Shown: piece after piece, positions 17,448 through 31,358 of the stretch | How the letters are laid out: the number at the start of each line of letters is the position of its first letter | Position numbering within the stretch: position 1 is the stretch's first letter | Origin: Acidipropionibacterium acidipropionici | GTDB taxonomy: Bacteria > Actinomycetota > Actinomycetes > Propionibacteriales > Propionibacteriaceae | Reading direction: 5' to 3' | DNA length: 64,000 bases | NCBI RefSeq assembly: GCF_001441165.1 | Contig: NZ_CP013126.1 | Location: 186,001 to 250,000, forward strand | Notes under the pieces: model-generated | Database searches by the model: none | Told to the model about the DNA's origin: nothing | Seen by the model: only the letters and a program-made list of their open reading frames with translations | Position numbers and translations under genes: made by a program

Positions 17448-18879
17448 GGATCGCGTCTCTTATGGTGGTGTCAAATCTGTGGTGATCGCTGGGGCGCTCG
17501 ACCAGCGGGTCTGAGACGTTGAGGGGTCACCGCGGTACCCGTCTCTATCAACGACCAAGAATCTAGAAAGAAGCCACCGCGATGACCCAGAACCAGTCTG
17601 CCCTGTCAACCCTGCTCACGGAACTCCTCGACGATCCTGACATGGCCCACGACCAAGTCTTCCGTCGCCTGTTGCAGGCCGGCCTGCAGGACCTGATCGA
17701 CGCCGAGGCCACCGCCAAGATCGGTGCCGGTCGCTACGAACGCAGCTCCGCCCGAACGACCAGGCGTAACGGGTCCCGATCCAAGACCCTGGAGACCCCG
17801 GCCGGCGAGGTGAACCTGGAGATCCCCAAACTGCGTCAGGGATCGTTCTTCCCGGCCCTGCTCCACCCCCGCCGCCGGGTCGACAAGGCCCTTTACGCCG
17901 TGGTCGCCCAAGCCTGGGTCGACGGGGTCTCCACCCGCAAGGTCGACCAGTTGATGCACGCCCTGGGCAACGAGTCGGGGATCTCGAAGGCCACAGTCTC
18001 CCGAGTGTGTGCCGACATCGATCAGACCGTCACCGAGTTTCTCACTCGCCCACTGGACCACACCTGGTTCCCCTACCTGTACCTGGATGCCACCTTCCTC
18101 GACGTGCGCCTGCACGGCCGCGTGGTCTCTCAGGCCGTGGTGGTGGCCACCGGGGTCTCGGGGCAGGGACGCCGCGAGATCCTGGGCATGAGCGTGGGGG
18201 ACACCGAGTCCACCGACTTCTGGACACAGTTCTTGCGCAGCCTGCGCGACCGGGGTCTCAAGGTTTCCACCGAGACCGATCCCCTCGGTGTCGTGCTGGT
18301 CACCTCGGATGCCCACGGCGGCATCCGTAATGCGGTCAAGGCCATCCTGCCCGGCGCCGGCTGGCAACGATGCCGAGTGCACTTCGCCCGCAATGTGACC
18401 CAGAAGCTCGGCAGTAGAGCGGCCAAGCCGGTCAACGCCCTGATCTCGGCGGTCTTCGCCCAGACCACCCCGCACGCGCTGAAGGCCCAGTACCGCCAAG
18501 TCGCCGAATCGTTGGCCGGCCCGTTCCCCGAGATCGCAAAGATGATGGATGCCGCGGAGCCCGACCTGACCGCGTTCACCGGGTTCCCGCCCGAGCACTG
18601 GGTCAAGATCTGGTCCAACAATCCGATCGAACGGCTCAACCGGGAGATCAAACGCCGCTCCGACGTGGTCCAGATCTTCCCCAACCGTGAATCGGTCACC
18701 CGGCTGGTAGGAGCCGTGCTCCAGGAGCAGCACGAGGAATGGCAGTACGGGGAACGCCGCTACCTCTCCGAGACCTCCATGCGCCGCCTCGTCGACGCCC
18801 TCACCAACACCGATGAGCCCCAGCCTCACGCTCTGCCCCTGACCGCCTGATCAAAGAACACCACCTCATGAGACTTGAC
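17448..18879 (+). mobile_element. IS256-family insertion sequence, complete, with 8-bp target duplication
   Basis: The element is about 1.43 kb. The direct repeat CGTCGCAC flanks it at 17440-17447 and 18880-18887. Imperfect terminal inverted repeats are seen: the left end has GTCTCTTATGGTGGTGT and the right end, read inward, GTCTCATGAGGTGGTGT. It contains one intact transposase gene. The clean duplication suggests a relatively recent insertion. Exact outer ends depend on the alignment of the repeats. Confidence 0.8.
17582..18850 (+). CDS. IS256-family transposase (mutator-type DDE)
   Basis: This 422-residue transposase appears intact. The DDE residues are in YLDATFLDV (first Asp), LVTSDAHGG (second Asp) and NPIERLNREIKRRSDVVQIFPN (Glu). 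The N-terminus has the DNA-binding region with R..RRNGSRSKTLETPAGEVNLEIPKLR, typical of the family. A GAAAGAAG stretch lies upstream of the ATG. Confidence 0.95.
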   Translation: MTQNQSALSTLLTELLDDPDMAHDQVFRRLLQAGLQDLIDAEATAKIGAGRYERSSARTTRRNGSRSKTLETPAGEVNLEIPKLRQGSFFPALLHPRRRVDKALYAVVAQAWVDGVSTRKVDQLMHALGNESGISKATVSRVCADIDQTVTEFLTRPLDHTWFPYLYLDATFLDVRLHGRVVSQAVVVATGVSGQGRREILGMSVGDTESTDFWTQFLRSLRDRGLKVSTETDPLGVVLVTSDAHGGIRNAVKAILPGAGWQRCRVHFARNVTQKLGSRAAKPVNALISAVFAQTTPHALKAQYRQVAESLAGPFPEIAKMMDAAEPDLTAFTGFPPEHWVKIWSNNPIERLNREIKRRSDVVQIFPNRESVTRLVGAVLQEQHEEWQYGERRYLSETSMRRLVDALTNTDEPQPHALPLTA

Positions 18880-19478: not shown

Positions 19479-19710
19479 GGGAGATCTGGCCCCTAGGGCC
19501 ACATACCGCGGCCCATCATGGCGAGGACCTCTCCTGCCTGAATCCTGAATCGTCACCTCTGAATCGCCACCGCACCGTAGGCATCCGGGTCCAAGTAGTT
19601 GTTGGCGATGAACGAATCCATTTCGGCGCTGCTGCGACATGGGGCTTCCTTGGAGGGATGTGATTCACGGCGGTGTTGGAGCCGGACGCCATTCATCGCG
19701 TCGGAAGGTG

Positions 19711-19747
19711 TGTCGGGAGTTGGGCCGTCATTGCCCCAACTTCCGAC
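19711..19747. terminator. Hairpin downstream of the DUF4352 lipoprotein gene
   Basis: TGTCGGGAGTTGGG (19711-19724) pairs with CCCAACTTCCGACA (19734-19747) with one mismatch. It follows the minus-strand gene ending at 19769 by about 20 bp. Confidence 0.55.
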
Positions 19748-19768
19748 ACAGCATCAGGCCGAGCGGCC

Positions 19769-20335
19769 TCAGTTCTGGAACATCACAGGCTCGTGATCGA
19801 AGTCCGGGTTGACCTCCATGACGATGTCCTCGGGATTCGCGATTCCGTAGCCGACGGTGAACTTCGACTCGCGGCCGTTCAGCAACTTGGTGCTCGGTGC
19901 TCCTTCGAGACCGCCCTCGGAGTCATAGACCTCATCCCCCTCCTCGTTGTCCGACTGGACGGTCGCAGTGAACATGCTGGGGTCCATGGCCTTGCCCGTC
20001 TTGTTGACGATCCGGACCTCAAACTTGACGTAGTTGTCGTACTTGCCCTCGTCGGCGGCGTACTCGCTCGGGGTGAAGGCCTTCGGGGCGGAGACAGTCA
20101 CCGACAACCCGTCGGTGTACGTGTAGGCGGAACCGAACCTGGCTACCGCATCCTGGTCGGCCGAACTCTGGTCGCCGGCCGGCTCGGTGGCCTGGCCGTC
20201 GGCCGCGCTCGACTCTGCCGCCGCCGGCACGTTGGAACCCTCCCCTGCGTCGCCGGTCTCCGATGCGGGCACGCCGCAGCCGGTGAAGATGAGAGCGACG
20301 CCGGCGAGCGCCGCGATGATGGTGGTCTTGTGCAT
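19769..20335 (-). CDS. DUF4352-like lipoprotein
   Basis: This 188-residue lipoprotein has lipobox FTGC with Cys20, an acidic Ala/Ser linker and a C-terminal domain that is plainly paralogous to the one at 16656-17399. Shared blocks include DGLSVTVSAPK, ATVQSDNEEG, GAPSTKLLNGRE, FTVGYG and IVMEVNPDF. The ATG at 20335 has AAGGAG five bases before it. Function is unknown; the domain is extracytoplasmic. It diverges from the restriction operon, with an operator-like palindrome between them. Confidence 0.8.
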   Translation of the reverse strand: MHKTTIIAALAGVALIFTGCGVPASETGDAGEGSNVPAAAESSAADGQATEPAGDQSSADQDAVARFGSAYTYTDGLSVTVSAPKAFTPSEYAADEGKYDNYVKFEVRIVNKTGKAMDPSMFTATVQSDNEEGDEVYDSEGGLEGAPSTKLLNGRESKFTVGYGIANPEDIVMEVNPDFDHEPVMFQN

Positions 20336-20423
20336 TGTCACTCCTTGTGCGCTTGCCGTCGGCCCTCGCCGGCGGCGACATCACAACTGTGACCGAGGCC
20401 CGGTCTCTCCAGTGCCGATGATC

Positions 20424-20443
20424 CTGATAACCTCCCTTATCAG
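20424..20443. promoter_or_regulatory. Candidate operator CTGATAA-N6-TTATCAG
   Basis: A perfect 7-bp inverted repeat with 6-bp spacer stands in the 216-bp region between the divergent lipoprotein gene (start 20335) and the restriction operon (start 20552). The dimension and symmetry suit a dimeric HTH protein. Which regulator binds is unknown; the HTH-containing first gene of the restriction operon is one candidate. Confidence 0.45.
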
Positions 20444-20551
20444 CTTCTTCTGACTACGATCATCCCGTGCCGTCGGTCGTCCGCCCTAGAGTGCGGGCAT
20501 CACGGAAAGCACCACGGAGTGACGGAAAGACGGACGGAGAGGAGGTCTCGC

Positions 20552-22513
20552 ATGACCACCACGCTCTCCCTGGCTGACGTCGCCCGCCTGGCCGGCGTCC
20601 AACGCCCAGTCGTCTCCATGTGGCGGCGCCGACCCCTCCCCGACACCCCGTTCCCCACTCCCCAGCCCGACGGCCGCTTCCTGACAGACGACGTCGTGGC
20701 CTATCTGCGCACGACCGGCCGGGGCAACAATCCCGAACCCGAACTGGCAACAGACCTGGCCGTCACCGCCAGTCCCGCCGCCGCCGCCGCTGACCGCGCC
20801 GACGTCCTGGTCCTGCTGGCGGCCCGCGCGATCCTGGGTGGCGACGCCCTGACCGGCGTCGACGTCGAGGACCTCCTGGACGACGTCGAGGCCCTCGACC
20901 CCGACGACGAGTGGCTCTTCTCCGAGATCGAGGACGCCGACATCGACCGCCTCGCACCGCAGGCCGACGCCATCGCCGACAACGCCTACTCCACCGCCGA
21001 GGCCTACGAGGAGCTCAGGTCGCGCACCGCCCCGGGTGGGCTGGCAACCGACCTCATCACCACCCTCGCCGACATCGCCACCGCCCTCCTCGGAGAGAAC
21101 GGCACCCTCGTCGACGTCGACGCCACCGCCTGCGACATCGCCCTGGCCACCACCGCCGACGAGTCCCGGACGGCGACCCGCGTCCTGGTGGCCACCTCAC
21201 CCGCCCCGGCCCAGGGAAACACCGCTGTCCACACAACCACCGCGGCCACCGCACCCATCCGCCAGTGCCTGCGCCGCTACCGGGTTCACAGCCTGGCTGC
21301 ACGAACGACAGACCTGCTGGGCGACTGGGATCTCACCGAGGGCTCGGTCATCCTCGCCCGCGTCGCCCCCTCCCCGGGCGCCGCGATGGCCACCATCGAC
21401 GAGCTCACCCTCCACATGGACCCGACCACCACCGCGCTGGTCATCGGCCCGGCGTCGATCCTCATCGACGAGCTGCCGACCGATCAGGTGGGCGCCCGCG
21501 ACGCCTTCCTGCGCGACGGGCTGGTCCGGGCCGCCGTCCGCCTGCCCCGCGGGCTGCTGAGCGAGGGCGGCGGCGAGCACCTGGCCCTGTGGCTCATGGG
21601 CCCCGGCGACCCCGGGCACCTGTGGGCCGGCGACCTGTCGGGCATCGGTTTCGGGGAGTCGACGAGGCAGCAGCTTCTGGACGACGTCGTCGCGGCCGCC
21701 CGCGCATCCCACCACGGACGCCGCGCCTTCGCCCTGCTCCACCGCACCGACACCACCCGGCTGCTCGCCCGGTCGCTGCCGCTCACCGCCCTGGACGTCT
21801 CCCCCACCGACCCCTTCCCGGTCTCGGCGGCCGACGACGCCGCCCGGATGGCCGATCTCCTCCGCGAACTGGCCGCGCCCATGACCGACCCCTTCCACGA
21901 GGTCCGCCCCCGGGCGACCGGATCAGGATCAGCGGGCTCCTCGACCCTGGGCGATCTGGCCCGCAACCGGCTCATCCAGGTGCTCCCGGGCCATCGCTTC
22001 GAGCCCCTGCCTCCCGGACAGCAGCGGATGTGGACCGCCGAGACGGTGGCCTCACGCCGCCCCGACGCCGTCGACCTCATGACGCTGACCGCCCGCCACC
22101 CCGACGTCGCCCTCACCAGGCCCGGCGACGTCGTCTTCACCAGCGCCGGATCCCCGCACGCCGTGGTGGACGCCGAGGGCGGCTCCGCGGTCGCCGAACC
22201 GGCCAGGGTGCTGCGCATCTCCCCCACCGCATCCCTGTCCGCCCGGGCGATCGCGTCCGCCATCAACGCCCTGGCTCCCACCCCGGGCAAGGGGAGATGG
22301 CGGTCCTGGACGGTTCCGGTGGTCACCGGATCCCGCTCCGACGCCGAGGAGGCCCTCGCACGCGTCGACTCGTGGGAGGATCAGATCCGCACCCGACTCG
22401 ACCTGCTCGACGAACTGCGCCGCCTGGCGACCCGCTCGGTCACCTCCGGAGCGGTCAGCTTCGTCGACACCCATGCCAACCCCCGTGATGGAAAGGCCAG
22501 TGATGGCTCGTAG
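20552..22513 (+). CDS. HTH, degenerate N6-methylase-like and HsdS-like protein leading a type I restriction operon
   Basis: This 653-residue protein begins with a MerR/excisionase-like DNA-binding segment (LADVARLAGVQRPVVSMWRRR, residues 6-26, wing to about 55). The middle (about 85-420) follows the layout of N6-adenine methylases, including RDAFLRDGLVRAAVRLPRGLL near 315 and the strand ALWLMG, but the SAM site has decayed (LVDVDATACD where DPxxGxG is expected) and no NPPY/F motif is present. Residues near 520-635 resemble HsdS: PGDVVFTSAGSPHAVV, then a long terminal helix pair. The ATG at 20552 follows GAGAGGAGG. It overlaps hsdM by 11 bp. A regulator, specificity adaptor or defence sensor are possible roles; catalysis is unlikely. 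Confidence 0.7.
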   Translation: MTTTLSLADVARLAGVQRPVVSMWRRRPLPDTPFPTPQPDGRFLTDDVVAYLRTTGRGNNPEPELATDLAVTASPAAAAADRADVLVLLAARAILGGDALTGVDVEDLLDDVEALDPDDEWLFSEIEDADIDRLAPQADAIADNAYSTAEAYEELRSRTAPGGLATDLITTLADIATALLGENGTLVDVDATACDIALATTADESRTATRVLVATSPAPAQGNTAVHTTTAATAPIRQCLRRYRVHSLAARTTDLLGDWDLTEGSVILARVAPSPGAAMATIDELTLHMDPTTTALVIGPASILIDELPTDQVGARDAFLRDGLVRAAVRLPRGLLSEGGGEHLALWLMGPGDPGHLWAGDLSGIGFGESTRQQLLDDVVAAARASHHGRRAFALLHRTDTTRLLARSLPLTALDVSPTDPFPVSAADDAARMADLLRELAAPMTDPFHEVRPRATGSGSAGSSTLGDLARNRLIQVLPGHRFEPLPPGQQRMWTAETVASRRPDAVDLMTLTARHPDVALTRPGDVVFTSAGSPHAVVDAEGGSAVAEPARVLRISPTASLSARAIASAINALAPTPGKGRWRSWTVPVVTGSRSDAEEALARVDSWEDQIRTRLDLLDELRRLATRSVTSGAVSFVDTHANPRDGKASDGS

Positions 22514-24137
22514 ACCTGTGAAGGCCCAGCCCTCGACCCGCAAGGAGCTCAAGGACACCCTGTGGAAGGCGGCCGACAAGCTGCGCGGCTCGATGAGCGC
22601 CGCCCAGTACAAGGACGTCGTGCTGGGGCTCATCTTCCTCAAGTACGTCTCGGACGCCTTCAACGAGCGGCGCGAGCAGATCACCGAGGAGCTGCGCGCC
22701 GACGGCTACGACGACGAGGCGATCGCCGAGACCCTGGAGGATCGCGACGAGTACGCCTCGGGCGCCTTCTGGGTGGATCCCGACGCCCGCTGGGACTCCC
22801 TGGTGGCCGACGCGAAGGTGGCCGGGGAGACGACCATCGGCCAGCGGATCAATGAGGCGATGGATCTGCTGATGCACGACAACCCGTCGCTGGAGGGCAC
22901 CCTGCCGAGGCTCTTCAACCGGGACAATGTGGATCAGCGCCGGCTGGCCGAGCTGCTGGATCTGCTGAACTCGGTGCAGTTCTCCGGGATGGGGGCTGCG
23001 AAGGCGCGGGATCTTCTGGGCGAGGTGTACGAATACTTCCTGGCGAATTTCGCCTTGTCGGAGGGCCATCGGGGTGGGGAGTTCTACACCCCCGCATCTG
23101 TGGTGCGCGTGATCGTGGAGGTGCTTCAGCCCAGGAAGGGCCGGGTGTACGACCCGTGCTGCGGATCGGGCGGCATGTTCGTCCAGGCGGAGAAATTCCT
23201 GGACGCCCACGACGCCGACCCGACGAACCTGTCGGTCTACGGGCAGGAGCTCAACGAGTCGACGTGGCGGATGGCGAAGATGAATCTGGCCATCCACGGG
23301 CTCAACGGGGATCTGGGGCCGCACTGGGGAGACACTTTCGCGATGCCCTATCACGGGGACCGCCAGATGGACTACGTGATGGCCAATCCGCCCTTCAACA
23401 TCAAGGACTGGAGCCGCCGCGAGTCCGACCCACGCTGGGTCTACGGGGTGCCGCCGGCCAAGAATGCGAACTACGCGTGGATGCAGCACATCATCTCCAA
23501 GCTGGCGCCGGGCGGGATGGCCGGTGTGGTGATGGCCAACGGGTCGATGACGTCGACGTCGAACGGCGAGGGCGACATCCGGGCCCAGTTCGTGGAGAAC
23601 GACCTGGTCGCGGCCATGGTGGCGCTGCCCGACAAGCTGTTCCGCTCGACCGGGATTCCGGCCTGCCTGTGGTTCTTCGCGAAAGACAAAGGGGCCGGAG
23701 ACAGTGGCTCGGTGGATCGGCGCGGGCAGGTGCTGTTCATCGACGCCCGTGAGATGGGCTACATGATCACCAGGGCTCAGCGGGGATTGAAGGCCGAGGA
23801 GATCCAGCGGATCGCCGACACCTTCCACGCCTGGCGCGGGATGGAGCAGCTGAGTCTGGCTACCGCGGATGTCACGGTCGACGACGAGGACTCGGTCTCT
23901 GCTTCCGGGACTGAATATGAGGATGTGCCCGGATTCTGCAAGAGCGTGAGCATCGCGGAGATCAAGGACGCCGGATACGCGCTGACGCCGGGCAGGTATG
24001 TCGGAATGGCGGGAGCCGAGGAGGACGACGAACCCCTGGACGAGAAGATCGCGAGGCTGACGAGTGAGTTGAACAAGCAGCTCGACGAGGCCACGGCACT
24101 CGGTGCAACAGTGCGCGAGCAGCTCGGGAGGCTGTGA
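22503..24137 (+). CDS. hsdM: Type I restriction-modification methylase subunit
   Basis: This 544-residue subunit adds a methyl group to adenine at the sites chosen by HsdS. The N-terminal helical HsdM domain (LRGSMSAAQYKDVVLGLIFLKYVSDAF) is followed by the SAM-binding motif DPCCGSGG near residue 217 and the catalytic NPPF near 296. The ATG at 22503 has GAAAGG six bases before it; two upstream in-frame ATGs lack this. The stop overlaps the hsdS start by one base. Confidence 0.95.
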   Translation: MARRPVKAQPSTRKELKDTLWKAADKLRGSMSAAQYKDVVLGLIFLKYVSDAFNERREQITEELRADGYDDEAIAETLEDRDEYASGAFWVDPDARWDSLVADAKVAGETTIGQRINEAMDLLMHDNPSLEGTLPRLFNRDNVDQRRLAELLDLLNSVQFSGMGAAKARDLLGEVYEYFLANFALSEGHRGGEFYTPASVVRVIVEVLQPRKGRVYDPCCGSGGMFVQAEKFLDAHDADPTNLSVYGQELNESTWRMAKMNLAIHGLNGDLGPHWGDTFAMPYHGDRQMDYVMANPPFNIKDWSRRESDPRWVYGVPPAKNANYAWMQHIISKLAPGGMAGVVMANGSMTSTSNGEGDIRAQFVENDLVAAMVALPDKLFRSTGIPACLWFFAKDKGAGDSGSVDRRGQVLFIDAREMGYMITRAQRGLKAEEIQRIADTFHAWRGMEQLSLATADVTVDDEDSVSASGTEYEDVPGFCKSVSIAEIKDAGYALTPGRYVGMAGAEEDDEPLDEKIARLTSELNKQLDEATALGATVREQLGRL

Positions 24138-25240
24138 TGCTCCGCAAATTGACTGACTGCTGCGAGAGCATCGACTACGGTTTCACGCAGAGCAGCAGCG
24201 CCGAAGAGATCGGCCCGCACTTTTTGCGTATCACTGACATCGACCCGGAATGCATCGATTGGGAGTCGGTCCCATACTGCGAAGCCTCTCCGGCGGAGCG
24301 CAACAAGTACGCCTTGGCGGCGGGCGATATCGTAGTGGCACGAACCGGAGCATCAACAGGGAACTCACGATGGATAGAATCTCCGCACGGATCTGTTTTC
24401 GCATCGTACCTTGTGCGACTCGTAGCACGTCCAGAAGTAAATTCTCGATACCTGTCCTACGTGCTCAAAGGCGCACAATGGAATCACTACGTGAGCAGCA
24501 TTTCCAGCTCAAAGTCAGCGCAACCAAACATGTCAGCTTCTGCTATGGGTCAGTTCACGTTCGAGATCCACAGTCTCCCCGAGCAGCAGGCCATTGCGGA
24601 GGTGTTGGGGGCGCTGGACGACAAGATCGCCGCCAACCGCAAGCTCGTCACCACCAGCCTCACCCTCGCCGAGGCGGTGCACGACCTCGCCCTCTCCGAT
24701 GAGCAGCGCCCCTTGGGTGACTTTATGGAGTTCGCCTATGGAAAGTCTTTGCCTGCGACTCGACGCATCCCGGGTGAAGTCCCGGTCGTCGGAAGCGGCG
24801 GAGTCACTGGAAGTCACGACGAAGCACTGGTCAATCGACCCGGAATTGTCGTCGGGCGCAAGGGAAGTATGGGCACAGTGCGTTGGATGGATGAACCGTT
24901 CTTTCCGATCGACACGACGTTCTACGTCACGAACAAGACCGGAATCCCAGATCAGTTCTGGTACTTCTCACTTAAACAGGCCCGATTCGAGGGACTGAAC
25001 TCAGATTCTGCAGTTCCCGGCCTCAACCGAGAGGCCGCCTTGGAACAGCTGACGCGCACCCCGAGCGAAAGCGGAATCAAGCGTTTCGAGGATTTCGCGC
25101 TGCCGTTGTTCGAGCTTGCGACGGCCAACCGACGGGAATCACAAACCCTCTCCCAACTTCGTGACACTCTTCTTCCCGCCCTCATGGACGGGACCATCCG
25201 CGTCAAGGACGCCGAACGACTCACCGAGGAGGCGGTCTGA
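24137..25240 (+). CDS. hsdS: Type I restriction-modification specificity subunit
   Basis: This 367-residue protein has two target-recognition domains. TRD1 (residues about 5-135) ends at the conserved helix LPEQQAIAEVLGALDDKIAANRKL; TRD2 (about 195-310) is followed by the second helix region QTLSQLRDTLLPALMDG. The TRD parts have clearly more A/T at third codon positions than hsdM or hsdR, while the helix regions are G/C-rich like them, the usual sign of TRD exchange. GGGAGG lies five bases before the ATG. The recognised sequence cannot be predicted. Confidence 0.92.
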   Translation: MLRKLTDCCESIDYGFTQSSSAEEIGPHFLRITDIDPECIDWESVPYCEASPAERNKYALAAGDIVVARTGASTGNSRWIESPHGSVFASYLVRLVARPEVNSRYLSYVLKGAQWNHYVSSISSSKSAQPNMSASAMGQFTFEIHSLPEQQAIAEVLGALDDKIAANRKLVTTSLTLAEAVHDLALSDEQRPLGDFMEFAYGKSLPATRRIPGEVPVVGSGGVTGSHDEALVNRPGIVVGRKGSMGTVRWMDEPFFPIDTTFYVTNKTGIPDQFWYFSLKQARFEGLNSDSAVPGLNREAALEQLTRTPSESGIKRFEDFALPLFELATANRRESQTLSQLRDTLLPALMDGTIRVKDAERLTEEAV

Positions 25241-28200
25241 ATGATCAGTGAGGCCGACTGGGAGGCCGACATGCTCGACTGGCTCGGTGAACTGGGCTGG
25301 GAGCCGGGCACGGGCAGTGACATCGACGGCCAACGTCGATCTGCCGCCGACCTCGTCCTCCAGACCGATCTGCTCAACGCACTACGGCGTCTGAACCCCG
25401 ACGTCCCCGACCAGCGCCTGGCCGAGGCCGCCGCCGAGATCACCGCCCCGAAGTCCCAGGATGCGATCGCCGAGAACGAGCGCCTCCATGACTTCCTGGT
25501 CCACGGGTTCCGCGGCCTCACCTACATCGACACCCAGGGCCGCGAACAGACTCCCACCCTGCGTCTGCTGTCGGACAACCCCACCGAGAACACCTATCGC
25601 GCCATCCACCAGGTCACCATCGTCTCGGGCCAGCACTCCCGCCGCTTCGACGTCGTGCTGTACGTCAACGGACTGCCCCTGGTGATCGCCGAACTCAAGA
25701 AGGCGTCCGCGTCGGCCACCATCACCGACGCCTACAACCAGCTGCAGACCTATCTCGCCGAGTTCCCCACCGCCTTCCGCACCGTGGTCGCCACCGTCAT
25801 CTCCGACGGCCTGGAGGCGAAGTACGGCACGCCCTTCACCCCTTCGAACCACTTCACCCCGTGGAACCTCAACGACCAGGGCGACCGCATCGACGACGAC
25901 AACGAGGGCCTGCAGCACCTGTGCTACGGGCTGCTGGAACCGCGTCGCTTTGTCGACATCGTCAAGCACTTCGTCACCTTCGAACACGACGACGGCGTCA
26001 CCAAGAAGATCGCCAAACCGCATCAGTACATGGCGGTCCGCAAGGCCGTCGAGCGCACCCTGACGGCCGTCGACTCCAACGGGAAGGCCGGCGTCGTCTG
26101 GCACACCCAGGGATCCGGCAAGTCGATGGAGATGGAGCTCTACGCCAACCTGGTGATGAGCGATCCGAAGCTGCTCAATCCCACGATCGTCGTCATCACC
26201 GACCGGCGTGATCTCGACGGGCAGCTCTACGACACCTTCGCCCGATCCACCCTGCTCCCCGAGAAGCCCACACAGATCCGCCGGCGTCAGGAGCTGCGCG
26301 ACTCGCTGTCCAACCGCAATTCCGGGGGCATCTACTTCACCACCCTGCAGAAGTTCGGCCTCACCGATGAGGAGCGAGGGCGGGGCGCCGACCACCCCCT
26401 GCTCACCGACCGGCACAACGTCATCGTCATCGTCGACGAGGCCCACCGCAGTCACTACGACGACCTCGATGGCTACGCCCGCCACCTCAAGGACGCCCTA
26501 CCCCACGGCACCCTCATCGCCTTCACCGGCACCCCCATCAGCGAGCCCGAGCGCAACACCCGTGACGTCTTCGGCGACTACATCGACATCTACGACCTCA
26601 CCCAGGCCGTGGAGGACGGCGCCACCGTTCCGGTGCACTTCGAGCCGCGCCTGGTGAAGGTGTCCCTGGCCTCCGAACTGACACCCGAGGAGATCGACGA
26701 GGCCGCCGACAAGGAGACTGCCGGGCTCGACGATTCAGAGCGGGAGCGCATCGAGCGCACCGTCGCCGTCATCAACGCCATCTACGGGGCGCCCGAGCGC
26801 CTGGAAGCCCTGGCTCGCGACATCGTCACCCACTGGGAACGGCGCCGCGACCTCATGGACGAGTATCTGCAGCCCTCCGATCCCGATGACGATGCGGTGC
26901 CCCACGGCAAGGGGATCATCGTGTGCAGCACCCGGGAGATCGCCGCGAAGCTCTACGACGAGATCGTGAAACTGCGGCCCGGATGGCATTCCGACGACGA
27001 CCGCACCGGCGTCATCAAGGTGGTGTATTCGGGGTCGGCCTCCGACCCGGATCCGATCCAGAAGCATGTGCGCCGCGAGTCGCAGAACAAGGCCATCAAG
27101 AACCGGCTCAAGAACGTCAATGACGAGCTGGAACTGGTGATCGTCAAGGACATGATGCTCACCGGTTTCGACGCGCCTGCCTGGCACACCATGTACCTGG
27201 ACCGGCCACTCAAAGGCGCCCAGTTGATGCAGGCCCTGGCCCGGGTGAACCGCATTTTCCGGGGGAAGAAGGACGGGCTGCTGGTGGCCTACGCGCCGCT
27301 GGCCGACAACCTCAAGAAGGCGCTGGGGGAATACACGACCCGCGATGCGCAGAACGAGCCGGTCGGCAAGAACATCTCGGAGGCCGTGCGGGAGACCCGG
27401 CGTCTGGTGGAGGCGCTGCGGGCGTTGCTGGCCGGTTGCGACTGGCGACCGGTTCTGGCGGGGGGAGGACGCCGCGCCGCCAAGGACGCCGTCTCGATGG
27501 CCGTGAACTATCTGCGGTCGCCGAGCACTCCCGGGAACCGTGTCGAGGAGGGGCAGGCCACCCTCAAGGAGCGGTTCCGGATGCTGTCGGGGCAGCTGGG
27601 GAGGATGTGGGCCCTGTCGGCGGGTTCGGAGCATCTGGATGACCTGCGTCACGAGATCCGGTTCTACGAGGAGGTCCGCGGCTGGATGGCCAAGTGGGAC
27701 GCCCGGGAGAGGGAGGCCCTGGGCCAGCCGATCCCCGAGGATGTCCGGCGGATGCTCAAGGGGCTGGTGGCCGAGGCGACCGCGGCCGGGGAGGTCACCG
27801 ACATCTACGCCGAGGCTGGCATCGACCTGCCGGATCTGCGGGAGTTGACACCGGAGAAGGCCGAGGAGCTGGCCAGGAGCGACAAGCCGCAGCTGGCCAT
27901 CGAGGCCCTGCGGGACATGCTGATGGCCGAGGCGAAGGCCGCGACCGCGCACAACCTGACGCGGCGGACGATGTTCAGCGAGCGGATCAACGGCCTCATG
28001 ATCCGCTACACGAACCAGCAGCTGACGTCGGTGGAGGCCATCACGCTGATCCTCGGAATGGCGGGGGACGTCGCCGCCGAGGCGGCCCGCGGGGAGAGAT
28101 TCAACCCGCCGTTGAGCGCCGACGAGCTGGCCTTCTACGACGCCGTGAGCCAGAACGACTCGGCGGTGGAGTTGATGGGCGACGACGTCCTGGCCGAGAT

Positions 28201-28399
28201 CGCCCGGGAACTCGTGGGCGTGATGCAGCGGGACACCCGGACCGACTGGAGGGTCCGGGCCGATATGCAGGCCAAGCTCCGGGTGTCGATCAAGCGGCTC
28301 CTGCGCAAGTACAAGTACCCGCCGGACAAGCAGCCCGCCGCGGTGAAGCGCGTCATCGACCAGATGGAGGAGTTGGCACCAAGGTATCCGACGAAGTGA
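25241..28399 (+). CDS. hsdR: Type I restriction enzyme motor/nuclease subunit
   Basis: This 1052-residue protein has a PD-(D/E)XK-type nuclease region (FDVVLYVNGLPLVIAELKK, near residue 136-154) and an SF2 translocase with Walker A TQGSGKS near 288, the DEAH box in VIVDEAHRS near 397, motif III FTGTPIS and motif VI QALARVNRIFR. The long C-terminal helical part would contact HsdM. It starts directly after the hsdS stop. All three subunits look intact, so the system should be able to cut unmethylated DNA. Confidence 0.95.
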   Translation: MISEADWEADMLDWLGELGWEPGTGSDIDGQRRSAADLVLQTDLLNALRRLNPDVPDQRLAEAAAEITAPKSQDAIAENERLHDFLVHGFRGLTYIDTQGREQTPTLRLLSDNPTENTYRAIHQVTIVSGQHSRRFDVVLYVNGLPLVIAELKKASASATITDAYNQLQTYLAEFPTAFRTVVATVISDGLEAKYGTPFTPSNHFTPWNLNDQGDRIDDDNEGLQHLCYGLLEPRRFVDIVKHFVTFEHDDGVTKKIAKPHQYMAVRKAVERTLTAVDSNGKAGVVWHTQGSGKSMEMELYANLVMSDPKLLNPTIVVITDRRDLDGQLYDTFARSTLLPEKPTQIRRRQELRDSLSNRNSGGIYFTTLQKFGLTDEERGRGADHPLLTDRHNVIVIVDEAHRSHYDDLDGYARHLKDALPHGTLIAFTGTPISEPERNTRDVFGDYIDIYDLTQAVEDGATVPVHFEPRLVKVSLASELTPEEIDEAADKETAGLDDSERERIERTVAVINAIYGAPERLEALARDIVTHWERRRDLMDEYLQPSDPDDDAVPHGKGIIVCSTREIAAKLYDEIVKLRPGWHSDDDRTGVIKVVYSGSASDPDPIQKHVRRESQNKAIKNRLKNVNDELELVIVKDMMLTGFDAPAWHTMYLDRPLKGAQLMQALARVNRIFRGKKDGLLVAYAPLADNLKKALGEYTTRDAQNEPVGKNISEAVRETRRLVEALRALLAGCDWRPVLAGGGRRAAKDAVSMAVNYLRSPSTPGNRVEEGQATLKERFRMLSGQLGRMWALSAGSEHLDDLRHEIRFYEEVRGWMAKWDAREREALGQPIPEDVRRMLKGLVAEATAAGEVTDIYAEAGIDLPDLRELTPEKAEELARSDKPQLAIEALRDMLMAEAKAATAHNLTRRTMFSERINGLMIRYTNQQLTSVEAITLILGMAGDVAAEAARGERFNPPLSADELAFYDAVSQNDSAVELMGDDVLAEIARELVGVMQRDTRTDWRVRADMQAKLRVSIKRLLRKYKYPPDKQPAAVKRVIDQMEELAPRYPTK

Positions 28400-28559
28400 T
28401 CAGACACGATCGCCAAGTCGCCCCGCTGTCAGCCAAATTCCACGAAGTAGTGACGAAATCACCCACATCACGGGCTGCAACAGAAACCGAGACCGTTAGA
28501 CCTGAGACCCAATATACAAGGCACGACGGTATCTGAACAACAGTGGACATGTCAGTGGA

Positions 28560-31358
28560 TTGGATAATGAAGTGAGCGGATTGGAAGCACCGGTTGTAGC
28601 CACTGGTGGACGTCTCCTCGCGCCCTTGGCAGCCACCGCGAGTCGAGCACTCGTCAAGAAACTCACGTTCAGATGGGCTGTCTCCCATCGAGTCCGCGCA
28701 CGGACAGAATTTCAATGTGACTGGAAGGTCTATCGTAAATGGCTAAAGACCATCACCATTGATGAACTTTCGAATCCAATCGTGGAGATCCAAGGAACAC
28801 TGGCGAATCGGCTTGACGAAGCGTTATGCGCCTCAGGAACGCACTGGTCCGATCCGACTGATCACCTCTCACGTGCGTTGCGTCTGGTCGAGCTGACCTA
28901 TCCTGCCATCGCCGCCACGATTGAGGACGCAGATCGCGCACAACTATGCGAATCATGGGCCCAACAGCGCGACGCCACGGTGCGGAAGGTGCTCTATGAG
29001 CTTGCGGGCCCAGATGCGGCCTTCAGCGCTCAAGACCTCGCGCAGGTGCTCCGCCAGCGATCGGCCGCGCGACGTACGGTGCGCCTCCAGGCGTTCAACA
29101 CGGATGAAGCCGCCCTGAGGTCATACCTCGAGCGAATACATATGCCGAATGTTCCGTCTGGGAGTGTGGTCGTCCTGCAGGGCGACTTCGGCTCAGGCAA
29201 GTCGGAGGTCGCGGAAACCTGGCACAGGGCCTGCATCAACGAGCTTGCTATGGGCGACATTGCGCCGATACCAGTCTGGTTCAATGCCAGTGCCATGACC
29301 GGGATGAGCCTCGAGAACGCTCTGGACGCACAAACCGGCCATGCTTGGCGACGCGGCCAAGGCGCATCCATCACAATCGATGGCCTTGATGAGATCGAGC
29401 CAGCTACGGCTCAAGCGCTGCTCGATGCCTCACGGGTGCTGGCCAAGACTTACACCAGCATCCGGGTCCTACTTACTTCGCGCCCCGGCATTTTGACTCC
29501 GACAACGGATGAGGAGCAGGCGATAGACCTGCTCTCCGCGTCGGACGCGCTTGACCTCGTCGAGGCGATCGGCGGGGAACGACGTGAAACCTGGCGTTGG
29601 ACGACGGACATGCGAGAGACCGTTAGGAGACCATTCTTCGCCCTTGCCGCAGGAATCATGCTTGCATCAGGCAGCGTCCCAGATGGTGAGGCGGACCTGA
29701 TCCGCAACTTGGTTGAGCATGCCCTTGCCACGGGCGCCGAGCGCCAAGCAGTGACTTCGAGCACGACTCGCGGGGTCCTTGAGAAGCTCGCAGTCAGACT
29801 CACTCATTCAGGTCGTGATGGTCTGTCATTCAGCGATCGTCAAGTGGCCCGTTCAAGCCGACTCGTTGCTGATGGGCCTCAAGGATCAGTCATATTCTCG
29901 CTGCCGATCTTTCAACACTGGTTTGCCGCACAAGCTATTCTTGCGGGCGATGTTCCACCGGAGGATATCGTTGCGACACGTCAAAGTTTCGTCCGGTGGA
30001 GGTGGGCCGCTGCGGTGGCGGTAATGAGCCTAACCGACGATTCACAGATTGATGAACTCCTTGGAACCTGGGTTTCCGGAAATCCAGGAGCTGCAGCTTG
30101 GATTATCCGCGAGGCATTTAGTGGCCGTGGGAACTTCCACACAGACGCCGACGGTAGCCTTGACGCAATCAGCAGTAGGCGACGCATTCTTCGTGCCCTG
30201 AGAACTTGGACAAATGGTCTTGGGCCATTCGCTCCTGGGCTTCTTCCAGACTCATTGGTGCATGGTCCCGTGGGGCTGGGTGTGGCCGTATCTGGTCGCT
30301 GCATTAACATCGCGTTTGCGGAGCCATCGCCGAAATCCGATTACGTGACCGAGCTTCCTGAGGGAATTCATCCACTCTCCTGGGGATCCATATCCAAGCC
30401 TGCCTGGATTCCATGGATGTGCGGCGGAGTGCCGCGAGGTAGCGCTTGGCCTTGGACGATGACGAGGGAACTGATCGCTCGCGAGACACTAAAGAAGCTC
30501 TCGAATGACCCCCATTTGGGCACGTCGGACGGAATCTGGACTCAGGAACGCCGTTTTGATCTTTCTAGGGTTCTCCTTCGGCGCGGACGGCAGTCCCTTG
30601 ATCCACTTCCCGCAGACGAAGTTAGAACTCGCGCCGTCGAGCTGTTTGAGTCTTTGGGCGGGAACCGCAAATCCTCAGTCACCTTCAATCTAGGCGGAAG
30701 CTATTCTGGCGCGGAACTCGAAGATCTAATCTTATCAATCGATACGAATCGACCGTCTGTAATTGCGTCGCCACTTCCCCAGCCAGATCTGAATCCTCCG
30801 CCGCCTAGTTCATGGATTTGGGAATGGTATTCACAGCAACGCATCATGGAGTTTGAGGTCGCTGTCTACAGTCGTGCTTGTAAGGCGTATGACGAAGCAC
30901 TAGATAACGCGTTCGCTCGACTAGGATGGTCAATGTCAAGTTCTATTCTTGCACCTTTTGGAGTTGTCATGCGCCTGAACTTGAATGACGATGATTCTGA
31001 GCGTAGATTGCGGGACCGCTGGGGATCAATATCTCTATCTCTCACCAGGGTTCCTATGGCGCTTCTCCCCGAGCTTGCACCAACGGATCCGGAACCTATA
31101 TGGTCTACAGACCGGCGTGTAGTGATATCGAGGAGCGAAGTGTCGCTCGAGACGGCTTACTTTTCCTGGGTCCTTGAGCGCATAGGTTCGTGGTTGCAAA
31201 TGCAAGAGCGAGAGCTTATCGGCGGCCTCAGTTGGTCGACCACGATCGCGAATCAGATGTCCAAGGTGCGTCCCGCCTGTGACATCGCGGCAAAATGGCT
31301 CTACGACGATCTGAAGAAAACCGGCTTGGGTGAAGGAACGTTCCCACAACTCCGATAG
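28560..31358 (+). CDS. NACHT/STAND-like NTPase, putative defence protein
   Basis: This protein of about 932 residues has a P-loop ATPase centre: Walker A GDFGSGKS near residue 208, Walker B ITIDGLDEIE near 272 and a sensor-like VLLTSRPG near 303. This resembles NACHT or related STAND ATPases of antiviral and signalling proteins. The N-terminal 200 residues are helical and unassigned; the C-terminal 500 residues match nothing I recognise and show no clear repeats. Codon use has far more A/T than neighbouring genes, which points to transfer. The start is uncertain (TTG 28560 or GTG 28572). It lies 160 bp after hsdR on the same strand. Confidence 0.7.
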   Translation: MDNEVSGLEAPVVATGGRLLAPLAATASRALVKKLTFRWAVSHRVRARTEFQCDWKVYRKWLKTITIDELSNPIVEIQGTLANRLDEALCASGTHWSDPTDHLSRALRLVELTYPAIAATIEDADRAQLCESWAQQRDATVRKVLYELAGPDAAFSAQDLAQVLRQRSAARRTVRLQAFNTDEAALRSYLERIHMPNVPSGSVVVLQGDFGSGKSEVAETWHRACINELAMGDIAPIPVWFNASAMTGMSLENALDAQTGHAWRRGQGASITIDGLDEIEPATAQALLDASRVLAKTYTSIRVLLTSRPGILTPTTDEEQAIDLLSASDALDLVEAIGGERRETWRWTTDMRETVRRPFFALAAGIMLASGSVPDGEADLIRNLVEHALATGAERQAVTSSTTRGVLEKLAVRLTHSGRDGLSFSDRQVARSSRLVADGPQGSVIFSLPIFQHWFAAQAILAGDVPPEDIVATRQSFVRWRWAAAVAVMSLTDDSQIDELLGTWVSGNPGAAAWIIREAFSGRGNFHTDADGSLDAISSRRRILRALRTWTNGLGPFAPGLLPDSLVHGPVGLGVAVSGRCINIAFAEPSPKSDYVTELPEGIHPLSWGSISKPAWIPWMCGGVPRGSAWPWTMTRELIARETLKKLSNDPHLGTSDGIWTQERRFDLSRVLLRRGRQSLDPLPADEVRTRAVELFESLGGNRKSSVTFNLGGSYSGAELEDLILSIDTNRPSVIASPLPQPDLNPPPPSSWIWEWYSQQRIMEFEVAVYSRACKAYDEALDNAFARLGWSMSSSILAPFGVVMRLNLNDDDSERRLRDRWGSISLSLTRVPMALLPELAPTDPEPIWSTDRRVVISRSEVSLETAYFSWVLERIGSWLQMQERELIGGLSWSTTIANQMSKVRPACDIAAKWLYDDLKKTGLGEGTFPQLR

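Follow-up and report, generated by a model that had tools for sequence, protein, structure and literature searches.

The window analyzed here comprises 64,000 nucleotides, namely positions 186001-250000 of the 3.65 Mb single-contig genome of Acidipropionibacterium acidipropionici, and harbors a type I restriction-modification (R-M) operon whose first gene, termed X in the following, encodes a protein of unusual composition. X (20552..22513, + strand) codes for 653 amino acids with a helix-turn-helix (HTH), a dead HsdM-like and an HsdS-half-like part, and is proposed to be a transcriptional controller. The reading frame is uninterrupted from the ATG at 20552 to the stop codon at 22511-22513, and an alternative GTG start lies in the same frame at 20519. 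Directly after X follow hsdM (22503..24137, + strand), coding for an active-type N6-adenine methylase with both DPCCGSG and NPPF, hsdS (24134..25240, + strand), coding for the specificity subunit, and hsdR (25241..28399, + strand), coding for the type I restriction translocase/nuclease. By their family matches (N6_Mtase with E 7e-109 and HsdM_N for hsdM, Methylase_S for hsdS, TIGR00348 and T1RH-like_C for hsdR) these three genes constitute a type I R-M system. An earlier reading of the DNA, made without database searches and called the sequence-only reading here, had placed a 653-residue protein first in the operon with an overlap of 11 bp to hsdM, and both the translation and the hsdM start codon (ATG at 22503) confirm this arrangement.

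The attempt to identify X by sequence alone failed, as no match was found in PADLOC and NCBIfam and no significant one in Pfam (best E 0.37) or in a sequence search of the PDB. Among 34 relatives that were scanned, HTH_17 matched in four (best 3e-07) and N6_Mtase also in four (best 1e-06). An AlphaFold model of X (predicted local distance difference test score, pLDDT, 90.4; predicted template modeling score, pTM, 0.72) contains helices at residues 7-14 and 18-26, which fit the HTH that had been proposed at residues 6-26. Residues 66-419 superpose on the HsdM of EcoR124I (7bto_A, Z 22.7, 321 residues, 3.8 A), and by this comparison X has the HsdM fold with its N-terminal helical and Rossmann methylase domains. 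The single-chain Vibrio methyltransferase 7eew was aligned over residues 66-650 with a whole-chain root-mean-square deviation of 30.6 A, so that the likeness holds domain by domain only. The tail is modeled as HsdS-half-like with a long terminal helix at 595-632. The fold comparison covered mainly residues 66-616. The methylase-like architecture and the specificity-like C-terminus of the sequence-only reading are thus borne out by structure prediction and fold comparison.

At the place of motif I (DPxxGxG), which binds S-adenosylmethionine (SAM), the X protein of the window reads VDVDATACD, and motif IV is absent; the lack of the SAM glycine motif and of NPPY/F, which had been noticed before, therefore holds. 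In 77 aligned relatives, the bare motif IV pattern [NDS]PP[YFWH] occurs once, as SPPW in L105 (loci are numbered with L and genomes with G throughout). On inspection this SPPW is displaced from the motif IV place, and the sister L103 does not have it, so that motif IV stands at its proper position in none of the 77. A remnant of motif I ([DE]x2-3GxG) is kept in 11 of them and gone in 66, including X of the window. Hence, the loss among homologues about which the sequence-only reading had asked is complete for motif IV and extends to most, not all, of the proteins for motif I. For contrast, all 91 HsdM rows retain motif I, and all but one of them retain motif IV (90 of 91). L130, a relative outside the 77, is closer to the intact state with DLSAGAGAGLL and AYPPF. 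The HTH residues V16, R18, V21, W24, and R27 are invariant in the 77 rows, which is in part due to selection.

In comparisons of sequence profiles, X matches free-standing actinobacterial HTH-N6 methylases with E 4e-19 across 416 columns, the HTH among them, and the HsdM of these operons weakly with E 0.028. Since X is near the former and far from the latter, the two sets between which nearness was judged, it appears to be a recruited regulator-methylase, probably, rather than a duplicated HsdM. The free-standing proteins L132, L134, L137, L139, and L141 keep the SAM motif, some of them with an altered motif IV (CTPP, CNLPF), and such free-standing methylases may be regulators too.

A match to X was found in 12 of 95 relatives of the genome, in two of these in short frames only. 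A wide scan of one genome per species (84,980 species) with two peptide patterns, one of which lies inside the HTH, gave 146 relatives, of which the best 80 were kept, all bearing actinobacterial names. hsdM directly follows X in 78 of these 80 loci, the exceptions being L078, which lies at a contig end, and L108, which is broken, and an hsdR match is located downstream within the fetched stretch in 64. The homologues therefore sit at restriction genes and not mainly elsewhere, which would have spoken against the sequence-only reading. The same gene order is present on three Arthrobacter-group conjugative plasmids (with broken frames in L233), where X is annotated as 'hypothetical protein'. 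X is a conserved member of one actinobacterial type I subfamily. In L061, L079, L043, and other Arthrobacter-type loci, about 0.8-1.8 kb often lie between hsdS and hsdR, and on the plasmid locus L233 a YhcG-like gene is annotated there.

Upstream of X, the palindrome CTGATAA-N6-TTATCAG (20424..20443), referred to as operator, is conserved across actinobacteria. This palindrome, to which the sequence-only reading had pointed, proved to be real: it is the sole exact copy in the 3.65 Mb genome, and the window holds no other copy at up to two mismatches, 0.10 being expected. All 80 loci carry TGATAA-N6-TTATCA in the 300 bp upstream of X: the match is exact in 49, off by one base in 23, and off by two in 8. 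Of 1600 control windows drawn from these loci, none comes within one mismatch, and 2 have two mismatches. Spacers of 3-9 were tried, and exact cases were found with 6 only. In a thinned set of 50 representatives with less than 60% identity, 26, 17, and 7 loci have zero, one, and two mismatches, respectively. Two sets that were not chosen by the HTH pattern, and are free of that selection, gave the operator at up to two mismatches in 26 of 30 new loci, mostly found via hsdM, and in 15 of 17 loci found by a whole-protein profile. All of ten further loci of the family have it as well, three of which look like copies of L036, L037, and L102. Among 19 hsdM loci without a full X, none has the operator at up to one mismatch, and L143 has one at two mismatches; six loci of free-standing HTH-methylases show neither a TGATAA operator nor a common palindrome. 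In 394 genomes of the class, the exact operator was found 20 times in 19 genomes, compared to 5 times for the reversed control pattern, with 12 copies at an X gene or fragment and one just behind an X operon. A second exact operator behind hsdR was seen in two loci, before an 813-amino-acid gene (L187:11204) and, in Streptomyces, before an 835-amino-acid gene (L107:18746). The L187 protein is an SMC/AAA ATPase which resembles LmuB, MADS, and PDC-S06 proteins according to PADLOC, and its gene is possibly an extra defence gene under the control of X.

The -10 box of the X-M-S-R operon, TAGAGT (20487..20492, + strand), starts 44 nt after the end of TTATCA. A TANNNT box is located 31-35 nt past the operator in 73 of the 80 loci and at 42-45 nt in five more, with none at 36-41 nt, and L054 and L099 have it at neither distance; the shuffled expectation for this place is 4%. 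With its 44 nt, the window falls into the second class, roughly a helical turn beyond the typical 31-35 nt. The box was found at 31-35 nt in 24 and at 41-46 nt in two of the 26 site-bearing loci of the hsdM-route set, and at 31-35 nt in 14 of the 15 of the profile set. If the -10 box is taken as positions -12 to -7, the center of the palindrome would lie near -52 or -63 relative to the presumed start. This spacing, on one face of the helix, is what would be expected of a protein that touches RNA polymerase from further upstream. No -35 element is conserved among the loci, and a sigma-70 consensus scan of 19600-28700 gave no promoter at X, because the TAGAGT box has no -35 partner. To the left of the operator, a mirror-image TANNNT is found at 32-33 nt in 32 of the 80 loci, and YANNNT at 29-35 nt in 58, before the divergently oriented genes. 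In the window, the corresponding box CACAGT (20386..20391, - strand) lies 33 nt left of the operator and is weak, with C instead of T at its first position.

The operator also accompanies hsdR genes that are separated from the operon. Of 15 rows in which hsdR lies more than 2.9 kb from hsdS, a cut set after inspection of the data, 11 have a separate operator within 400 bp of hsdR, compared to 2 of 46 rows with gaps of 61-2900 bp. The -10 box stands at 31-35 or 42 nt in 9 of the 13 hsdR rows with an operator, L059 and L205 being the same locus. As a test set, nine hsdR pieces on other contigs or far away were located by protein similarity; in two of them (L241, L242) the operator was already known, and one of the seven new pieces had 110 bp only. 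The six usable new genes comprise four with an operator at up to two mismatches, one with three mismatches and one with none, and all five operators have a -10 box at 32-34 or 42 nt. In G492, the operators of X (L209) and of hsdR (L239) share an odd GATAG half.

An altered palindrome was found with all three X proteins that carry RQAV in the recognition helix, the others read having RPVV or a near variant. In L114 and L117, which belong to one genus and have the helix RQAVSMW, it is GTTAA-N8-TTAAC. In L030 (RQAVTNW) it is GTTTA-N8-TAAAC, in full CTGTTTA-N6-TAAACAG, whereas the nearest relative that was found for L030, namely L244 (45% identity), shows a helix and an operator of the usual kind. 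The distance to the -10 box is kept in L030 (33 nt) and L117 (35 nt) but not in L114 (25 nt). As GATAA-type operators are kept with L116 (RQVV), L127 and L062 (RAVV), and L130 (RPSV), the replacement of Val by Ala is the strongest candidate for the switch. In these few loci, the covariation of helix and operator points to the HTH as the reader of the palindrome.

X seems to go with restriction and not with modification. An hsdR match was obtained genome-wide in 11 of 11 genomes with X that were checked (one copy with an internal stop) vs. 0 of 11 without X at E 1e-60, and close hsdM relatives without X have no intact hsdR nearby. Short remnants of X remain in L143 (=L224, 114 amino acids) and L146 (=L227, 81 amino acids), and hsdR remnants in L225 and L227. 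A quick tree of 91 HsdM rows requires five changes of X, and of five independent pairs differing in X, hsdR follows in four and is unchanged in one. Nine distant hsdM rows (40-53% identity) with hsdR but without X form one group outside the clade; therefore, X is dispensable for type I systems in general. The orphan hsdM/hsdS loci L143, L147-L150, and L153 are nested in the X-M-S-R clade with X and hsdR gone, and several of such loci adjoin open reading frames (ORFs) resembling thyA and dfrA, as read by eye. A joint loss of hsdR and X may account for the orphan hsdM/hsdS loci in mycobacteria-like genomes.

Between G004 and G002, which belong to the same genus, X is 99.9% identical over 681 amino acids, HsdM 96.0% and HsdR 97.6%, but HsdS 33.6%. 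The X tail thus differs from a specificity subunit in being constant while the target specificity varies between strains, and for this reason the S-like tail has no role in reading the changing R-M target. A marking of the target for the nearby NTPase, which the sequence-only reading had offered, found no support and was rejected, since X is unchanged when HsdS changes and the DNA site that is conserved belongs to a promoter. The NTPase gene itself (28560-31358), after hsdR, encodes a 932-amino-acid P-loop (NACHT/AAA-like) protein without a match above the curated cut-off; it had no match in 12 relative loci, and no survey of its conservation was made.

On the other side of the operator, the divergent gene of the window (19769..20335, - strand) encodes a putative lipoprotein of about 188 amino acids, with a lipobox-like FTGC and AAGGAG before the ATG, read by eye. 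Similar ORFs occur at the same place in L035 and L037. A + strand ORF at 19673-20392 with matches in L021 and L032, considered as the upstream gene, overlies the lipoprotein gene and is most likely spurious. The divergent genes, taken as the longest divergent ORF per locus and possibly wrong in some cases, include one similarity cluster of 32 members, and others encode RNase H, DUF4352, and DUF6119 proteins. Elsewhere, the gene at this position encodes a membrane-anchored protein of about 220 amino acids (in the cluster of 32), a protein of about 480 amino acids, or an RNase H or DUF6119 protein. The divergent position may thus serve as an interchangeable place for accessory genes next to one and the same operator. 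An IS256-family transposase gene is located at 17582-18850, upstream of the defence genes.

The conservation of X, its gene order, dead motifs, operator, -10 geometry, helix-operator covariation, and loss together with hsdR, all read from sequence, make it likely that X is a dead regulatory methylase dedicated to the transcriptional control of one type I subfamily with four genes (X-M-S-R). X would be related to the free-standing HTH-N6 methylases and have lost catalysis, and would form a dimer, perhaps held by the HsdS-like C-terminal helix. It is very probably the protein bound to the palindrome CTGATAA-N6-TTATCAG, which it would recognize by means of its N-terminal HTH. From this site, about 52 or 63 bp ahead of the presumed transcription start, it would most likely bring RNA polymerase to promoters with a -10 box and no conserved -35; that X activates transcription is somewhat favored by the promoter geometry. 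In this way X could drive its own operon (autoactivation), separate hsdR genes, and often the divergent accessory gene. Such a positive feedback might delay restriction after entry of the genes into a new cell and coordinate HsdR with HsdM and HsdS. From the suggestion of the sequence-only reading that the protein could repress or time the operon, transcriptional control is retained, whereas repression is disfavored, as the promoter geometry points to activation. Competition with HsdM, likewise offered there, is neither favored nor disfavored by the data.

If X were instead an autorepressor, it would sit on the same operator, keep the restriction genes low and release them on a signal, like HsdC (PMC5282649) and RptR (PMC12255303), the known type I controllers, which are both described as repressors. 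The operator would then be expected over the -35/-10 region, as is reported for RptR (PMC12255303). The observed boxes at 31-35 nt, the empty range of 36-41 nt, and the second class about one helical turn further on do not fit this, nor do the same spacing at detached hsdR promoters and the mirror-image boxes equally distant on the other side, and repression is judged unlikely. The retained HsdM-like and HsdS-half-like folds, together with the loss of X along with hsdR, would also suit a fourth subunit or assembly factor of the M-S-R enzyme, in which a dead M and half an S compete for HsdS or HsdM while another regulator occupies the palindrome. Yet the operator and X co-occur, the exact operator is single in the genome of the window, unlike the sites of a global regulator, the helix and the operator covary in L030, L114, and L117, and X has an HTH and stands first in the operon. 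Such a mainly structural role is considered improbable.

A similarly small chance is given to the idea that X reads the palindrome by its HsdS-like recognition domain and that the HTH serves another purpose. The tail is HsdS-like, and a bipartite palindrome with an N6 spacer resembles type I targets, but the altered operators of L030, L114, and L117 accompany altered recognition helices, and the five HTH residues named above are invariant in the 77 rows, though partly selected. That X has kept methylase activity, permanent or conditional, with motif IV in an unusual form is highly improbable: the fold is intact in the model, GxG remnants persist in 11 of 77 rows, and L130 has DLSAGAGAGLL and AYPPF, but by inspection motif IV is lost at its place in 77 of 77 rows, and GxG is gone in 66, including the window. 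A rather doubtful, further-reaching idea is that X is a methylase mimic sensing the availability of modification subunits, in which the dead body and the half-HsdS tail would exchange partners with HsdM and HsdS, so that X is free, or in the right state, to switch on hsdR only with complete M2S. If this is true, restriction would be licensed by sensing the assembled methylase, a checkpoint not met with in the papers searched.

Several points weigh against X as a dedicated activator. Both its binding and the output of the promoters are deduced from sequence, and the large conserved M-like and S-like domains exceed the needs of a plain DNA-binding activator. The conservation of the HTH and the operator among the best 80 of 146 relatives is partly selected, because one search pattern lay in the HTH. 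The covariation comprises three loci, perhaps two events, and was noticed post hoc, and the pairs differing in X are too few for significance of the joint loss with hsdR (sign test p 0.125). In L198, L200, and L210, which were found via hsdM, 0.8-3.1 kb separate X from hsdM; L198 and L200 have exact half-sites with a spacer of 5, and L199 has three mismatches. Furthermore, 7 of the 20 exact genomic copies of the operator lie away from any X gene, and the detached hsdR genes of L037, L063, L103, and L218, as well as L237 in the later test, have no operator. Activation in particular is unproved, since GC-rich actinobacteria commonly lack a -35 element, and hexamers resembling TTGACA occur at twice the shuffled frequency (12 of 73, 16%, vs. 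8.8%).

Discussions of how type I restriction is controlled mostly concern the post-translational level (ClpXP acting on HsdR). Here, an actinobacterial type I subfamily would have a built-in controller made from a dead methylase and illustrate a path from enzyme to regulator in defence systems. The operator is recognizable by eye and may mark the targets, including remote hsdR and accessory genes. The pair of X and operator would allow the switching-on of type I restriction to be tested directly and at low cost. Literature searches, which covered open PubMed Central papers, gave no description of X or its operator, and the dedicated type I controllers met in the literature examined are HsdC (PMC5282649) and RptR (PMC12255303) only.

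According to PMC5282649, the HsdC of Mollicutes is a C-protein with direct repeats as binding sites and apparently a repressor. Like the gene for HsdC, X stands ahead of the hsd genes of a type I operon, in the place of a controller, and HsdC acts on its own promoter (PMC5282649), but X is a methylase-derived protein of 653 amino acids with an inverted repeat and an activator-like geometry. RptR of gammaproteobacteria is a small HTH-like repressor whose TAGCTA sites overlap the -10 region (PMC12255303). It resembles X in being encoded close to type I R-M genes, to which it is linked as a regulator, and in having a conserved operator (PMC12255303). X is large and methylase-derived, and has a different operator in a different phylum. 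The type II C proteins C.PvuII and C.AhdI are autogenous activators with binding sites ahead of the -35 region, and they delay restriction (PMC5282649, PMC12707154). X is set apart from them by description, being methylase-derived and sharing an operon with hsdM. With its three domains, it is also not a small stand-alone HTH protein of the kind to which the C proteins, RptR, and HsdC belong. The type II C proteins are small stand-alone proteins.

The regulatory methyltransferases of type II systems, M.SsoII and Ecl18kI, are active methylases that act by competition at overlapping promoters (PMC12707154). As in these proteins (PMC12707154), X has an N-terminal HTH fused to a methylase fold and a conserved site at what appears to be its own R-M promoter. 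However, it is not an active C5-cytosine methylase of a type II system, but a dead N6-type protein with lost motifs and an HsdS-like tail, in a type I operon with a separate, motif-intact HsdM. The free-standing actinobacterial HTH-N6 methylases (five rows) match the profile of X over the HTH and methylase parts, and their consensus keeps DPACGTG, unlike X. With HsdM, the single-chain 7eew, and M-S fusions, X has in common the HsdM fold at 66-419 and an S-like tail, while it differs from them by its HTH head and the absence of catalytic motif IV. X thus appears to combine the ideas of a type I controller and of a regulatory methylase, with a dead N6 methylase, an HsdS-like tail, and an operator of its own, in another phylum.

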